A DNA stretch of 64,000 nucleotides from Bugulina stolonifera (Eukaryota; Bryozoa; Gymnolaemata; Cheilostomatida; Bugulidae). Below, in pieces: positions 15,270 through 59,616 of the stretch (positions are counted from its first letter, which is position 1; every line of letters begins with the position of its first letter). Below the pieces are notes generated by a model. It worked only from the letters and a program-made list of their open reading frames with translations, ran no database searches and was not told the DNA's origin. A program made the position numbers and the translations under genes. The stretch covers positions 16,974,099-17,038,098 of the forward strand of contig OW285193.1 of the NCBI GenBank assembly GCA_935421135.1. Reading direction: 5' to 3'.

Positions 15270-17552
15270 TTAGTAGACATGCTGTAAGCATGGATGCATA
15301 TAGAAAGCGGGAGTTGAGAATGAATAGTAATGATGCTGCGGCATGTAGTTGTAAGTGTCATAAGCTGGGTTGTATTTGTTGTTCTGACCTCCATACAAGT
15401 AGTGCAAGTCGGACTCCATTGCTAGTTGGCGATCCACTTCGCACCTGACATGGTAGGCCATCTGGGAGATCATGTCCAACGCTTGCCGTCTTTCATGGCC
15501 CATAAGACAGACTGTACTATTGTTCACAACAACATGAAGCTCATTCAAATATCGGAGCATCAGTGCAAAGTCTCTTCCAAAGTGATTGATGAGATACGAG
15601 TCAAGTTTTTGATACTGTGATGAGATATCGGAGTAATCGATGAAGAACCGAGAGCACATCAATCGCTCCAGAGTTTCGATATCAGAAACGGTGCACTCCG
15701 GAGTATAACCACGAGCAAGGAGATCACAGTATTTGAGCAGCCCACCACCCCTAATCTCCTGGGGAGTGAGTGTGCAGATAAGTTTTTGGTTGAGATGTCG
15801 GAGAGCCTCATGATAGTTGCCATATACACTTTCAACTATCACAGTCGGATAGAAGTCCTCAGTCATTTCCGCTGAAGACAGGTTATGAAATTGCATGAGA
15901 CTATCCAGAACTATTTGGAAGGAATCCACGCTAAACTGGTATTTTCTTTTCATAGTGTCTACAAATTTGAGCTCTAGATTCATACCGTCGTTGTTGGATA
16001 ATGTCACAAGGGTCCACTTGTCCCCATTTACACTCCACACTTTAGCAAGCTTGCTCACATATGCATCAGCCAAAGCGGGAAGACTAAGTTTGCTTAAATT
16101 GGTCTCCTCTGGTAAGTAGGTAAGCAGGCACTGCACAACCAGGTCTTTCAAACACAACAACATTTCTTCACTCTCCAACTTCACGGAGAATATAAGATCA
16201 ATATCATTGTAGCTGAGCTTGTTCTGTTCGCTGTCACCCACAATATAGGAAGCTACGCCACCATTAACTCTGACGTCATAAATGGCTATGTTATTCTCCT
16301 CTAACTTGTGGTGTACTTTCTTTACTAGATCTTTCATCTGCACCTAAAAATTGTTTAGGTATTTAGTGCACTGATTTTAGGAAATCAAGGAAGACCTTGA
16401 AAATTTTATGTGCAAAGCGATCATACATTTGTTTTTAAGTGCTAACCAGAAAGCGGTAACCACTACATGAATACCAAAGTAACCTGGACAGAAAACTAGC
16501 AGCTAAACAAAAGAAGATTGTTGAAGGATGAAAGTCTGTAAAATGTTGAAGAAAATTACCAAGTTGCACAACCAGTTTATTGGAGCGAGGCTTTTGATGA
16601 GTTTTTATTGTACTCTTGTTTATGGAAAAGAACAGCAGTCCAGTAATTAAATTATTATTAGCATTTTACTATTGATGTTGTGCATGCTAACCTTTTAGAG
16701 TTGAAAGTGACATGAAATTTGAGAAAGTGAAAAATGCTTCAAAAAGTATGCAAATAAGAAATTCCAGGTTTTGAAGATGCAAGTGACTGTCAATGCGACT
16801 AAATTACTACCAGTAGAAATTGCCGATACTGTGATATTTCAATAAAATTCTTGGGATCAATGCTTCCTAATTCTCTAGTCTTCGGAAAAATATACACTTT
16901 CTCTTTGGCAGGCTAGCCGCTAGCTACGTATTGCGTATTATTTGCAGCATCAAATATACTATTAATAAGCTATATGATCTGTTGAACGATTGATGCTTTT
17001 TTGAATATTTTATAATTATTATATTCGTCTTCAAATTTACCTCAGGTGAGGGCGGGTTAGCTTATTTATAACAGTATTATAATATAATTAAATATAATAT
17101 CCACACTGCATTCTGACTTTGCACTACACTAAAAGTTCCTTGGCTTTTATACTGGTGCTAAAGCTTGTTTTGCAGTTACAATAAAATAGTAAGTATAATT
17201 ATTTTTATAGTAGGCTAATAGTTTTGCAAACACAAGACCATTTGCTGCAGTACTCTACTGCAACTACACTAACCATCCCATGCGATGCCAATGTAACAGC
17301 AATTCAATATCAATATATATATACATATGAATTTACCATATGGTATTGATATAAATGAACACAGGAATAAGATTATCTGCCACAGTAGAGTATAGAATAG
17401 TATGTATTTGAACTTTATTTTACTTTACTTATACTAACCTTCAAAGTAGGAAAATTTCCTTTCCCATGAACTTCAACCCCCATTTGGTATGCATTGTTCA
17501 ATTTCTGCACTTGTGCAAAAGTTAGAGTTTCCAGTGAAGCTTGTGGTATCAT
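15270..17552 (-). CDS. TENT5: TENT5 (FAM46) family non-canonical poly(A) polymerase
   Basis: Two exons: 17552-17439 (38 codons, start ATG at 17552) and 16343-15270, joined across a 1,095-base GT-AG intron in phase 0, giving 395 residues. Vertebrate TENT5 proteins are about 390-440 long. The family adds poly(A) tails to selected mRNAs, including those of secreted proteins. Exon 1 ends with the conserved HGKGNFPTLK block. Exon 2 holds the nucleotidyltransferase core: NGG at 65-67 (GS in human paralogues), the catalytic DID at 85-87, and the third carboxylate in LELKFVD (Glu162). Other family blocks follow: FSVDSFQI, EIRGGGLLKY, LERLMCSRFFIDY and STVCLMGHERRQ. The C-terminus is rich in Tyr, His and Pro. 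The start was chosen because it gives a human-like N-terminus; extra 5' exons cannot be excluded. Confidence 0.95.
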
Positions 17553-47422: not shown

Positions 47423-48990
47423 ATGGTTACCTGTAAGGTACTCCGTTATATTTTATTCATCATCATACATTTTGCACAACTGCTGAGCAGTGTGAATAGC
47501 GTTTGTACATGTGAGTCACAACAGTCTACAAAGGTTGGCACAGTTTGCTATGAAATGTCAAGTAAAGAAAAGAAATACCAACGCGCTACAATATACTGCC
47601 AAAAAAATTTTCCTGGAGGTATCATTGCGTATCAATACACTGACCTCTTCAAGATGATGATGAGTGATGCAAGTGGTGAGTGTCTAGTATAGCTATCCTA
47701 CATGTACATGGTTTAGACATCGCTTTAAAGGGGTAAATATTTTCTTGTACATAATATTATTCAAATCAGTAGGGAATACTCGACATACATAATATGTAAA
47801 TCTAGTGTAGGATATCTACGTATATGTACAACATGCTCACAGTTTTCATGGTTCATAGCAGAAATAACATTTAATTCTTAGTTAGATTTTTACTCAAGTA
47901 TTGGTTTAGATTAACCAGTAGCTTCCCTGCCTGAACGATAGCCTACATACATGTAATAGGATTGTGTATAGACTTGGAAGTGATCTCTTTTTCACCAAAA
48001 GTCGTGAAAAGCATAAAATCCAACAGATTAAAAATTTTCAAAGGCAAGAATCTTCTGAACTACACACCCACTTGGCGAGCCTATGTGAACATTTCAATCT
48101 ATTAGTAGACTACATAATATATATATCGAAATTAGATTGGTGGCACCTACTAGTAATTAATAATTTGATTCTCATTTAGGAAATTGAGATAGGACTGCCC
48201 AGCCATCGCATCACATCAACTGTAAAGCGTGTTTATTAAATATTCTACATGAATGTATACTTACAGTTGATTCCATCCATATAAACAGCAATGCCAACTA
48301 CCCTACACATATGCATGATAGTGGTAAGGTCCACACTGATGGGGATGCTAGCAGACAATTCATATGCCAGTATGACTGTACAGAACCAGGTAAGCTGAAC
48401 TCATCAATTTAATGTCAAGCACAACTTGAAAGTATCCGTCATTTGTAAGAATTAACACTTTTGGCATAGTTTGAAAACCACGTAGAGTCAAAACGCTTAC
48501 AAAACTGAATCAATGGACTAAAGATTTTTCTAATACAGTAAAACTTGCTTAATTCAACCTCGGATAATTCAAAAACTTGGTTAATTCAAACTATTAGCCT
48601 TGGTCCCTGCTGAGCACTAGTATATAATGAGTTTGAATTAAGCAAGTTTCACTGTATAGTGATACGGGTAGAAAAGGAACCAAATTCGTCTGAAATGCAC
48701 AGCTCGTAGCCATAGGTGTTTGGCTTTCCAGGGAATTTTATACACATGCAACTCTGTTACGAGACTTAAGAGCTTTACTCGGAAAACTCATCTTTCTATT
48801 CTATACACTCCTGGTTAATATTTTAATCCTTTTTGCTACTATTTTAACTTTACATGCAAATATAAGTCTACCCTAGATATGTAAGCTGCCAAAAGCTTGA
48901 TTTTACTTTCAAAATACATGTATCTGCCTCTTATCTTTGGTAGTAACAACATCAACACCGACAACAACAACAACACCGACAACAACACCG

Positions 48991-49035
<45 letters not shown>

Positions 49036-49602
49036 CCGACAACACCGACAACACCGACAACACCGACAACACCGACAACACCGACAACACCGACAACATC
49101 AACAACGACAACACCGACAACACCGACAACACCGACAACACCGACAACACCGACAACACCAACAACACCGACAACAACAGCACAAATAACAACAACCACA
49201 CATGCAACACTAACAACAACGACAACTGTTGCACCAACAACAGCAGTTATACCAACAACAACTGCAGTCACCCCACCCACTACAGCTCAACTACCCGAAA
49301 TTACTAATAAACTATTGCCAACAACCACAACAGACGCTAATATGGAACCGCTACAAAAACACACAAAATTTGAAACCAATTCACACTGCTGTGCCTCTAA
49401 ACAGAATTACAGAACTATCATATTCGATCGTGTGACCAAACACTTAGTTGAAATATGTGGTTGCAGATGTGCAAAAGATGTTCACTGTAGCTGCTTTGGT
49501 GTTTCTATTGATAACCAAACCTGTAAACTGTTCAATAGCATCAGCAATAGCGGTGAGGGCAATTCGACAGTGAGTCGTTGTCTTCATAAAGTTTATATGT
49601 AA
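47423..49602 (+). CDS. Secreted C-type-lectin-like / Thr-rich mucin / PAN-like protein (paralogue 1)
   Basis: Three exons: 47423-47675, 48267-48389 and 48944-49602, all joined in phase 1; 344 residues. A hydrophobic signal peptide covers about residues 1-26. Exon 1 then holds the start of a C-type-lectin-like domain (VGTVCYEMSSKEKKYQRATIYC). Exon 2 holds its end (HMHDSGKVHTDGDASRQFIC, then QYDC). From residue 126 to about 255 the protein is Thr with Pro or Ser, encoded by aca/ccg microsatellite DNA: a likely O-glycosylated mucin-like spacer. The last 72 residues form a Cys-rich PAN/apple-like module (C-x3-C-A-K-D-x2-C-x2-F-G...TCKLF) that aligns with paralogue 2. Exon 2 lacks about 33 residues present in paralogue 2, so the lectin fold is incomplete unless an exon was missed. 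No calcium-binding EPN/QPD or WND motif is seen. Confidence 0.82.
48536..48654. mobile_element. Pogo/Tc1-type MITE, 119 bp
   Basis: The termini cagtaaaacttgcttaattc and the complement of gaattaagcaagtttcactg are near-perfect inverted repeats, flanked by TA on both sides. A CAGT start and TA duplication are typical of Tc1/mariner-pogo elements. It lies in intron 2 of lectin/PAN gene 1 and has no coding capacity. Confidence 0.85.
48944..49250 (+). repeat. Coding aca/ccg microsatellite
   Basis: A run of aca triplets (about 15 in a row near 48990-49033) followed by about 18 accgacaac-type 9-mers, with a few variants. It begins at the exon 3 acceptor of lectin/PAN gene 1 and is translated as TTT and PTT units. 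The array is pure enough that its length probably varies between individuals. Confidence 0.9.
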
Positions 49603-53908: not shown

Positions 53909-56737
53909 CTATAATTTACTGTGTAGATTGTAGTGATACACATGGAAATGATTATACTATAAACAGTTTAGCTGATGGTCTTGCACTTCACCTTGCTCAT
54001 TCAAAAGCAGGTGATGTAATTTAAATTATAATAACTTTTATATTAATTTAGTCCATGATGACTATTGGATAAAACATTTTAAAAATCTTCCTTAAGACCC
54101 CTACATTGGTGGAATTTCATATCCAAGTATAGAATTACCTAAATAGTGTTTGTGAGCGAATAACATTAGTTGATTATGTAAGAGTTGTTTTACTGTTGTA
54201 CCTGTAATTGTAGAGGTTTTTGTGCCTTTTATATCCTCGCACACGTATATCATTATTTAAATATCATGGGTTCAATATTGTTAGTCATTTTTACAGACTG
54301 AACTATTTGTCGTAATATAATTTTTAATTTTTGTCAAATATTAGATTAGGCCTACAATAATTATTGAGTTGTGCACTTTGTAGCTGTTCCCTCTTCATTC
54401 TACACCCACCAGTAAAATTTATAAATGAGACAAGGAACTGAAATTTATCTGATCACTGGATGTTGCAATACAGAAATAAATTGTCCTTGTGTATACCTTT
54501 CAAAATAGTTAACCTGAGTTACAGACAAGCTTATTGGAACTGATGCTAAATTAGGTAATCTATTCAACAGGGTATGTTCTGGCTATTAGGGGCATGAAAT
54601 ACTTATTACAGACACACACAAAGTTATGCATTTTATACTGTTATAAGAATACTAAATATAATATTATTAATATAAGCAAAATTATTAATATAACACAGTT
54701 TTCTGTTGATAACAATAAATAATATTAGCTATTGGCTATCTCTCTCAAAAAGCACAATAGCCCATTGTATGTTACTAAGATACCCAGAGACAGACATTAC
54801 AGCATGTAGGCACTGGCTATGGAGTTCAGGTAAATATTGATAAAAGTCTAGTATTATGCAATCAAGAATAATATCAATACATGACATAACAATGATTACT
54901 GGCCTTGTCATAACCTTAGCCTAAGTTCTACATATACATGTACATTAAACCAATCAATATTGTGTTTTACCTAAACTATTCACTGATCTATTGGATAAAC
55001 TATAATATTGGTGCACCAAGGAGTGCTCCTTGGGTATACTATAATATTTTAGTAAAATTGTGGGCAAACTTTCAAATTTTGTGTATTTACAGTAACAATT
55101 GGGATATTTATCAACATCCTACAAGTCAATGCCAATGGTAGAAATTTAAGCCACTTGAGAGCAGGACTCATATTTTATTCAAATATTCTATAATTTCAAT
55201 TTTCCAACTGCACATAATTATTAGATCACCTTTAGGCTTTAAAACTGCAGAAAAAAAGATAAATTTCAAGTTTTTAAAAGGCCCTACAAACAGTGTAGAA
55301 TGTGGGTGAACTGGCCAATGCTATTTGTTATCTCAACTGAATGTAAAGGAAATGTTATTGTACAATGTACATCAATTGTATTGACATGAATACCAAGTAA
55401 TTAGATTATGTCTATAACAACAACATTCTATTTAGTTTGGACAAATTCTTGACAATTTATACATATTTGAGTCAATGAGCAGTGCATATCAACATTCAAA
55501 GTCCTGCATTTAGGACGCTGTCGGTATTTTATGTTTTATGTAGAAGATGTGTCGTCATACGTAAATATCAACCACACAATGTAATGGTATGCTATACAAG
55601 AGCATTCTTAAAAGATTTGTACCTTATTTATTCTTTCTATTTACGTCATGTTATTGCCTAGAGACATGCTGTTGTTGCTGACAGCAAAACAAACCCTAAC
55701 ATTACATAACAATTAATTGCACACCGGGCGTTAATACGTGATAGTTCACCGCATGCTATCTGTTTTTTAATAATTAACAATGAGTGCACTTCATTCTACA
55801 TAAACATGATACACTTTTTTAAATTAATACTGATACAATGTACAGAGTGAAATCACATAAATCTATCCATCGTGTCTGTACTGTTGTAGGAACATTTTAC
55901 ATCTTGATCATGTTCAGTCAAATAGTAGGACTCAAAAACTTTTAAGACTTTGATACAACGGACATAGTTTTAATATAACAAATTGATTTATCTTCGATTA
56001 CAATACAGGGAAGTCAACTACTTTGAGTAAGATTTATGAAACAAAAAGTATTATGATTTAATTATTTCAATCAATTATGTCAAACTACGCAACGTTAGCA
56101 GCAATCGGTATGTTTCCTTGTGTGATGTTCCGCTGCCACCCACACCACACAACTATTATACTAGGTTTCAGTTTCCCCTAGTTCGTATCACCTCCCTTAT
56201 CTAACAGCCGATCAGAATAATTCAGTAAATCTGTTTGAATGAATCAGTGAATAGCACTAGTGGAGGGCCAAAACGTGGAAGATAAAATCAGTTGTTCCTC
56301 TTGCATTGGTATACTTACATAATATTATACCTGCATTGTATATCATGCACCTGTGATGCATTCAATTCCTATGAGGAAAGTAAAACCGACTACCTTTTAC
56401 TAAGTATATGGCAGACTTGGCATAAGCTATTTGAGAGATATAAGCTGCATTTCGAATTATAATAATTTCTACTAAAGTGCACCGACCCACTGTTCGTGTG
56501 AATTTTTTTAATTTTTCACTATGTTTAGGCAAGGGTAACATTGTATGTTATTCTCTCCTTGTTGAGTGAAAGTATTGGTTGTATTCTGCTTACCTAACAT
56601 CTATATTTAAAATACTACATTATGGTATGCTAAATCTACATGTTCAATGCCTACCTGAAAAATATGGCCATCTTCACCTAACCTTGAAATGTTACTTTTG
56701 CCTGCCTGGTATGCATGGTTCAAGATTTTATGTGTCG
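53909..56737. other. Non-coding stretch
   Basis: AT-rich (much of it atta/ttaa-rich), with no exon, RNA gene or clear element identified on either strand. Confidence 0.4.
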
Positions 56738-57350
56738 TATACATTATACAGTATACAGTATACATTATACAGTATACATTATACATTATAGTACAGTATA
56801 CATTATACAGTATACATTATACATTATACATTATACAGTATACAGTATACATTATACAGTATACATTATACAGTATACATTATACAGTATACATTATACA
56901 GTATACATTATACAGTATACATTATACAGTATACATTATACATTATACATTATACAGTATACAGTATACAGTATACATTATACAGTATACATTATACAGT
57001 ATACAGTATACATCATACAGTATACATTATACAGTATACATTATACATTATACAGTATACATTATACAGTATACATTATACATTATACAGTATACATTAT
57101 ACATTATACAGTATACATTATACAGTATACATTATACAGTATACATTATACATTATACATTATACAGTATACAGTATACAGTATACATTATACAGTATAC
57201 ATTATACAGTATACAGTATACATCATACAGTATACATTATACAGTATACATTATACATTATACAGTATACATTATACAGTATACATTATACATTATACAG
57301 TATACATTATACATTATACAGTATACATTATACAGTATACATTATACACA
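56738..57350. repeat. Array of 7-bp units with a 210-bp higher-order period
   Basis: About 87 units of two 7-base types, atacagt and atacatt, in a mixed order, with one rare variant (catcatacag). The variant occurs at 57011 and again at 57221, exactly 210 bases (30 units) apart, and the 120 bases following each are identical. The array is self-complementary in part (gtatac) and keeps long Tyr/Ile/His/Ser-rich frames open; these are not genes. Confidence 0.92.
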
Positions 57351-57544: not shown

Positions 57545-57651
57545 TATTGCTGTTACACATTTTTGTTTCATGATGGAAACCACTAATCTCCAGACTGCTT
57601 GTGATTCAAAGATTAATAGTTTCTACCATGAAACAAATTTGTAATAGCAAT
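57545..57651. mobile_element. Hairpin MITE-like element
   Basis: Left arm from attgctgttacac to aaaccactaatct and right arm from agattaatagtttc to gtaatagcaat are inverted copies of about 43 bases around a 21-base loop. No coding capacity; target duplication not clear. Confidence 0.6.
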
Positions 57652-58247: not shown

Positions 58248-58474
58248 GTAAGTAACCTGAAGACATTGTTGTAGTAAATACATCAGAATAGCCTATAGCA
58301 AGCATTACAGGTAACATGGTTGTGTTTTGGTATCTTTAACATACATTAAGTATCTTGGTCATATATTGGCTATAAAACAATGCATTGTATGACAGAAGTC
58401 TTGTGTGGAACCTGCTACTGAAAGAAATCAACCGATATGCAATAAGTAATAATGTTAAATGATTCTTTTGTAGG

Positions 58475-59616
58475 ATGACTTGCAAAATATCATCACTTGT
58501 GTTGCTCTGTGCAGAGCTAGTCATATTGGTTTGCATGCTGTCACAATCTACATCAGCAGCACCTACTGGCAGATGTAGTTACACTAGCGAGCAATACCAG
58601 ACTATCGTATTCAGTATGTGCACGTCTCACCTGAAGAAAAGATCTGTAAACCAACCATCTACTAACAACATTGCAGGTAAGCATTATCACCCAGTCATCA
58701 GGTTTTCCTTTTGGAATCTTGCCAACATACATATTCTTATGTAATATAACTTCTATTCTCGATAAATAGTGCAGTAATATCGGGATAAATCGGTCACCAA
58801 TTGATTTTTGTGTTGTTTCAAAGAATTTAAGACATTTTTTAGAAATAGCTACAACATTCACTTTGATAAATGGACATAATTTTTATAGAGATAATTGTTG
58901 ACTAAAGCAACAGATGGACCATGGGTCATGGGTCATGGGTCATGGGTCATGGGTCATGGGTCATGCTCAAGCTATACAGAGTATTATGTTAAAGCTGAAT
59001 TGAACAGATTAAATGAGTCGAATGTTAATCTACTGCTAATTACTTTAATTAATCCAATTGATTAACTTGAGGAATTTTTCGAGCACATAATTTTCATACT
59101 AAATGAAGCAAGAGTTATTAAACTACATCTAGTCAATGTTATTACGTTTGCTGGCATTGTTGGTATAACAATAGTGTTTGTTTGCGTCGGTGTGAGTTAT
59201 CAGAAATCAATAGCACTGATTGTAAATAGTGAATATTCTAGACACACCAATTCATGCTTCATCTATTAAATCACTTCTATTTTTGGATAAACATAAAAGA
59301 CCCAGTTTATGATTTGCAATATTCATCAATAAATTATTATTCAGCAATAATAGTAGTAAGTTGAAACATGCGATTAATTAATTTTCATTAACCTGTTAAT
59401 CTTACATACTTCACTAGTGTACATGTTCTTAAAATTATTTTCAATTTTCTAGTTGCAGATATTGAAAGATTAGAGAAGATGGGTATACATGTTGAAGCTG
59501 AGGAACACAGAGTAAAGAGGAGCGACACCACCTTACATCTCATAGTGACCTATTGCTACAATAACTGCTGTACCTACGATCGTTTAGAGTACATATGTGG
59601 CTCTAGTTCTTCATGA
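58475..59616 (+). CDS. Insulin/relaxin-like secreted prepropeptide, non-canonical Cys spacing
   Basis: Two coding exons, 58475-58676 and 59453-59616, join in phase 1 to give 121 residues. Residues 1-28 are a hydrophobic signal peptide ending STSA. Next comes a B-chain-like segment with two cysteines (Cys34 and Cys49, C-x14-C), then the basic site KKR (54-56), an acidic/helical connecting peptide (IERLEKMGIHVEAEEH), the site RVKR (87-90), and an A-chain-like segment with four cysteines: C102-x3-C106-C107-x8-C116, ending YDRLEYICG. Insulins have six cysteines arranged 2+4, with A-chain CC-x3-C-x8-C and B-chain C-x11-C. Order, size, cleavage sites, C-terminal tyrosine/leucine pattern and the phase-1 intron in the connecting peptide fit insulin; the CC position and B spacing do not. 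Alternative: an unrelated Cys-rich secreted peptide. Expression and processing are unknown. Confidence 0.72.
58920..58965. repeat. 7-bp tandem repeat (catgggt)
   Basis: About six and a half exact copies of catgggt in the intron that splits the connecting peptide of the insulin-like gene. Confidence 0.9.

Follow-up and report, generated by a model that had tools for sequence, protein, structure and literature searches.

A probable insulin-type hormone gene with a displaced cysteine pair in the bryozoan Bugulina stolonifera

Introduction

To our knowledge, the disulfide bridge between Cys A7 and Cys B7 is usually treated as a fixed element of insulins. Consistent with this, the hormones compared in the available text of one study share similar disulfide motifs (PMC10560217). 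A gene of Bugulina stolonifera, a cheilostome bryozoan and thus a lophotrochozoan, rather than the early-branching animal that the original prediction had supposed, raises the question of whether a peptide lacking both of these cysteines, and carrying two others nearby, can still be an insulin. The gene lies in a 64-kb stretch of DNA (contig 7, 16974099-17038098; hereafter “the window”) of an assembly of 234,951,659 bases in 27 contigs; the published assembly of the species, tzBugStol2.1, is described with 234,982,697 bp in 30 scaffolds (PMC10213821).

Results

Structure of the gene and its surroundings

As read from the sequence, the gene occupies positions 58475-59616 of the window, from an ATG at 58475 to a stop codon ending at 59616, and its two exons encode an insulin-type precursor of 121 or 119 amino acids, depending on whether the intron acceptor lies before 59453 or before 59459, both of which keep the frame (Table 1). 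From 5' to 3', its parts are a signal peptide, a B segment with C-x14-C spacing, KKR, a connecting peptide, RVKR, and an A segment with C-x3-CC-x8-C spacing. The preproinsulin build of the original prediction (KKR, RVKR, a two-Cys and a four-Cys segment) is therefore present as described, and both of its cysteine spacings were read again from the sequence unchanged. The signal peptide was called by eye, from its hydrophobic core and from the small side chains at -3/-1, together with a hydrophobicity rule. The precursor would enter the secretory path, and excision of the connecting peptide at KKR and RVKR would leave a B chain and an A chain of roughly 25 and 31 residues. For residues 29-53 joined to 89-119 (numbered in the 119-residue form) by three disulfides, the calculated monoisotopic mass is 6326.71. 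The B chain stops four residues past B19, and the A segment ends five residues beyond its last Cys. Together, the mature parts hold six Cys, an even number, with one canonical Cys lost and one gained in each chain. A candidate 5'-UTR intron precedes the ATG; vertebrate INS also has an intron in its 5' UTR.

Table 1 Features of the insulin-type gene (positions in the window; splice marks and cleavage sites shown by a slash)
Feature	Position	Strand	Basis or remark
TATA-box-like TATATAAA	58114..58121	+	Sequence reading; putative promoter role
Candidate 5'-UTR intron, CAA/GTAAGT ... TTTTGTAG/G directly 5' of ATG	58248..58473	+	Splice consensus
Coding exon 1: signal peptide, B segment, KKR, first part of connecting peptide	58475..58676	+	
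Predicted signal peptide, residues 1-28, cut TSA/APT	58475..58558	+	By eye
B segment, residues 29-53, C-x14-C	58559..58633	+	
Cys at B4 position, replacing Cys B7	58574..58576	+	Register counted from B19; equals engineered Cys B4, PDB 4efx_B
Cys B19, kept	58619..58621	+	
KKR processing site (predicted)	58634..58642	+	
Phase-1 intron within connecting peptide; alternative end 59458	58677..59452	+	GTAAGC donor (58677), CTAG or TTGCAG acceptor
Coding exon 2: remaining connecting peptide, RVKR, A segment, stop	59453..59616	+	
RVKR furin-type processing site (predicted)	59509..59520	+	
A segment, 31 residues, C-x3-CC-x8-C, I-V at A2-A3, L-E at A16-A17	59521..59613	+	
Cys A6, kept	59554..59556	+	
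Cys A10, replacing Cys A7 (Tyr here)	59566..59568	+	Equals engineered Cys A10, PDB 4efx_A
Cys A11, kept	59569..59571	+	
Cys A20, kept	59596..59598	+	

The surrounding DNA holds several repeats: a short GGTCATG tandem repeat within the coding intron (58917-58965), a strong tandem array of TATACATTATACAGTATACAT units of 14/21/35 bases that precedes the gene by about 1.1 kb (56737-57348), and, at 57557-57642, an inverted repeat of 33 bases (82% complementary, arms 20 bases apart) that is possibly the remnant of a small mobile element. Farther away, an open frame of 357 amino acids on the minus strand (15270-16343) matches PF07984 (NTP_transf_7; E 9.7e-113), which we take to be the TENT5/FAM46 nucleotidyltransferase family. 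Another open frame (48901-49602), in which a Cys-rich stretch comes after a long Thr/Pro-rich repeat, had no Pfam match at E 0.01 and appears to encode a secreted mucin-type protein.

Canonical paralogs in the same genome

The genome search revealed at least nine canonical A-chain exons of the molluscan type (CECC-x3-C-x8-C; within L031-L036). Six of these form a tandem array of ~20 kb at 13.518-13.538 Mb of contig 7, 3.5 Mb from the window gene, while the others occur singly on contigs 6 (9.17 Mb), 8 (7.81 Mb), and 9 (10.05 Mb). No close copy was found when the assembly was searched with the window precursor. These eight-Cys peptides share with the window gene the genome, the exon layout where read, and an ungapped A register, but combine CC-x3-C-x8-C with a Cys at A4 (9/9 A exons) and an extra Cys in the B chain (all five B exons found). 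The window peptide, with six mature Cys, lacks this extra pair, i.e., it has Cys neither at A4 nor upstream of B7 at the additional site. Six insulin-like precursors are described from the related Bugula neritina, a member of the same animal family, all predicted with four bridges (PMC4990251); the six-Cys form is thus not among them as described there, and this four-bridge description alone sets them apart from the window peptide. By number, the A exons of Bugulina (at least nine) exceed the six precursors given for Bugula neritina transcripts in the same source (PMC4990251).

Cysteine register

When aligned on A20, the A segment runs without a gap along the nine A chains from the same genome and human insulin, and MAFFT returned the same register. 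Cys A6, A11, and A20 are common to the window gene, the nine paralogs, and human insulin, and Cys B19 is kept as well. Counted from A20 and B19, positions A7 and B7 are taken by Tyr and Thr, respectively, and A10 and B4 have each become Cys. The shifted cysteine pair of the original prediction was thus correct in its spacing, but in this register the change amounts to one displaced Cys per chain (A10 for A7, B4 for B7). Since MAFFT pairs the shifted B-chain Cys with Cys B7 and opens a three-residue gap after it, a moved Cys and a three-residue insertion are equally possible. With either alignment the shifted Cys lies three residues farther from B19 than usual, so that only the way in which this arose distinguishes them.

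Ungapped identity of the A segment amounts to 4 to 8 of 20 residues against the nine paralogs, the highest value being reached with L001, and to 7/20 against human insulin. Ile-Val at A2-A3 and Leu A16 occur likewise in L001, L018, and human insulin, with poorer agreement in the other paralogs; Leu-Glu at A16-A17 is the same as in human insulin, and Thr A12 matches four of the nine paralogs. No A chain among the nine paralogs has a Cys at A10, and no intermediate was seen among them.

Membership in the insulin superfamily

Like members of the insulin/IGF/relaxin superfamily (PF00049), the window gene encodes a signal peptide followed by B, C, and A parts separated by dibasic cleavage sites, retains Cys A6, A11, A20, and B19, and, as read from the sequence, has its connecting peptide split by a phase-1 intron; the donors after the B chain of three canonical paralogs (L001, L014, and L015) were read as phase 1 too. 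It differs in the absence of Cys A7 and B7, and hence of the canonical motif (CC-x3-C-x8-C with C-x11-C in B), in its Cys at A10 and B4, and in escaping detection by Pfam. The RxxxRxxI/V motif of relaxin-type B chains is absent from its B chain. In the portion of the source available, relaxin/Dilp8- and Dilp7-type genes are described with a phase-1 intron at this place, and the relaxin/Dilp8 type has no further coding intron, likewise none being seen in the window gene (PMC11863921).

Profile and database searches returned little for the native peptide. Neither the precursor nor its A segment gave an insulin match in Pfam, the precursor thus staying below the curated PF00049 cut-off of 23 bits, while each of the nine canonical A exons, scanned by itself, matched this profile, four at or above the cut-off and five below it. 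Once its two displaced Cys had been moved in silico to their canonical places, the precursor had PF00049 as top Pfam match, at 16.5 bits (cut-off 23) and across profile positions 4-81 of 81; one of eight shuffled versions of this Cys-moved precursor also matched PF00049, at 11.2 bits. No homolog emerged from a protein-database search with the native precursor, and a sequence search of the PDB gave a single match, to a DNA polymerase subunit (E 0.16), which we attribute to chance. Either chain alone had no match in the PDB, where the canonical L001 A chain found 69. Strictly by motif and Pfam rules, the window gene is not a member of the superfamily.

Similarity beyond the cysteines was modest. 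The joint similarity of non-Cys residues in A and B to the gene’s own paralogs (nine A and three B chains) was reached by 132 of 20,000 shuffles, and that to human insulin by 2,679 of 100,000. Similarities appear weak when the chains are taken singly: for A, 11,023 (own paralogs) and 7,582 (human insulin) of 200,000 shuffles did as well, and for B, 3,219 (three paralogs) and 43,236 (human insulin) of 200,000. An hhalign comparison with three paralogs was not significant (E 0.21). AlphaFold modeled the precursor alone with low confidence (pLDDT 41.8) and, when paralog A exons were supplied, with moderate confidence (mean pLDDT 69.3, pTM 0.43), predicting helices at residues 38-57, 88-103, and 107-115; no insulin was among the Foldseek matches listed for the latter model. 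Overall, a derived relative is the most economical reading of the gene, and the insulin-type prepropeptide first proposed for it gains support from architecture, the phase-1 connecting-peptide intron, and the A-chain register.

An engineered precedent for the new cysteine pair

The human insulin in PDB entry 4EFX, whose sequence we checked, carries Cys at B4 of chain B and A10 of chain A, i.e., at exactly the two positions of the new Cys in the window gene. This strengthens the earlier proposal that the shifts in the two chains are connected. The entry is named a four-disulfide insulin in the available text of one report (PMC13386395, 2026), and a 2025 review describes, in the part available, a tertiary structure little affected by the A10-B4 bridge and a similar receptor affinity, together with a compromised pharmacodynamic response of the analogue (PMC12567236). 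Since A10-B4 closes in 4EFX, the new pair of the window gene sits at a disulfide-permissive site of the insulin fold, and we infer that the bridge would close in the bryozoan peptide too. The engineered molecule, however, retains Cys A7 and B7, whereas the bryozoan peptide has A10/B4 in their place. From the text of open-licence literature, we know of no natural framework in print with A10-B4 for A7-B7.

Weighing other readings

The simplest alternative is that chance open frames are joined here by chance splice signals, which we regard as scarcely credible. Search patterns for the A and B exons had one match each in the window, with order, spacing, and phase all correct, and neither matched any of 60 random 64-kb sequences generated by a Markov-1 model, although both patterns were designed after the gene had been seen. 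In 200 kb of other DNA from the same genome (L031-L050), the A pattern had no match and the B pattern three, one in a true insulin-like gene and two elsewhere, a rate of non-insulin matches in real DNA that speaks for chance; the patterns are also narrow, that for A catching none of the nine canonical A exons contained in these 200 kb. Taken together, this confirmed that the gene is real and unusual, as first noticed. Decay of an insulin-like gene, with Cys positions drifting after loss of function, would fit the strong divergence from the nine paralogs and the failure to find a close copy in the genome, but is very unlikely given that the frame is open, that the sites for splicing and processing are intact, and that the mature Cys are even in number, each chain having exchanged exactly one canonical Cys for a new one.

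Two further alternatives take the gene as functional. A convergent secreted peptide, either another hormone or a defence peptide with two Cys-rich chains and only the looks of an insulin precursor, would account for the missing canonical motif and the want of significant sequence or profile matches to insulins; we consider it rather unlikely, since the parts follow each other as in insulin precursors, the A segment is in ungapped register and shares IV (A2-A3) and LE (A16-A17) with human insulin, the connecting peptide has its phase-1 intron, and insulin becomes the top Pfam match, if below the cut-off, after the in silico Cys move. Alternatively, an insulin-like gene may pair its Cys differently (e.g., A6-A10 with A11-B4) and adopt a non-insulin topology, as the adjacent Cys A10-A11 would permit and as the Foldseek result for the predicted model, with no insulin listed, might suggest. 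This too is unlikely, considering that A6, A11, A20, and B19 are all kept and that A10-B4 closes in an otherwise native insulin (4EFX).

Discussion

Our analysis indicates that the window gene is probably a divergent insulin-type hormone gene that keeps Cys A6, A11, A20, and B19 and has A10-B4 in place of A7-B7. The two chains would then be held together by bridges A6-A11 and A20-B19 and by a relocated interchain bridge, A10-B4. Of the two standings that had been envisaged for it within the superfamily, a divergent insulin type is favored, while a whole new branch is not established because the evidence comes from one gene in one genome.

The gene would have descended from a canonical insulin-like gene. 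In one likely route, a canonical ancestor gained A10-B4, a bridge tolerated according to 4EFX, and the resulting four-disulfide form went on to lose A7-B7. The fuller proposition, i.e., a natural hormone of the insulin superfamily in which A10-B4 replaced A7-B7, perhaps via such an intermediate from which the native bridge was then discarded, we judge to stand at about an even chance.

How might this peptide signal? Among exons with a Recep_L domain, one (L008) has insulin receptors as its best match (first domain, E 1.9e-28) and another (L009) the EGFR family. Since RXFP/LGR3 receptors are reported as lost in bryozoans in the available text of the source (PMC11863921), a kinase receptor is favored for the window peptide, which may signal via this genome’s insulin-receptor-type kinase. 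The manner of binding could have changed: a B chain without aromatic tail and altered residues at A1, A19, B8, and B12 suggest an altered receptor contact. Specifically, because the B chain ends so soon after B19, it lacks the aromatic contact that human insulin makes through B24-B25; with this loss and Ile at A19, the peptide should touch its receptor differently from classical insulin.

If true, a natural exchange of A7-B7 for A10-B4 would mean that the insulin fold is able to trade this disulfide, would suggest an eight-Cys form as a step on the way, and would provide a natural template for stable insulin analogues, evolution having reached the same bridge as the engineers of human insulin. 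Given that Pfam, at a loose threshold, finds the nine canonical A exons and misses the window gene, other relatives with moved Cys may sit unannotated, which hints that profile searches may overlook moved-Cys members of the insulin superfamily.
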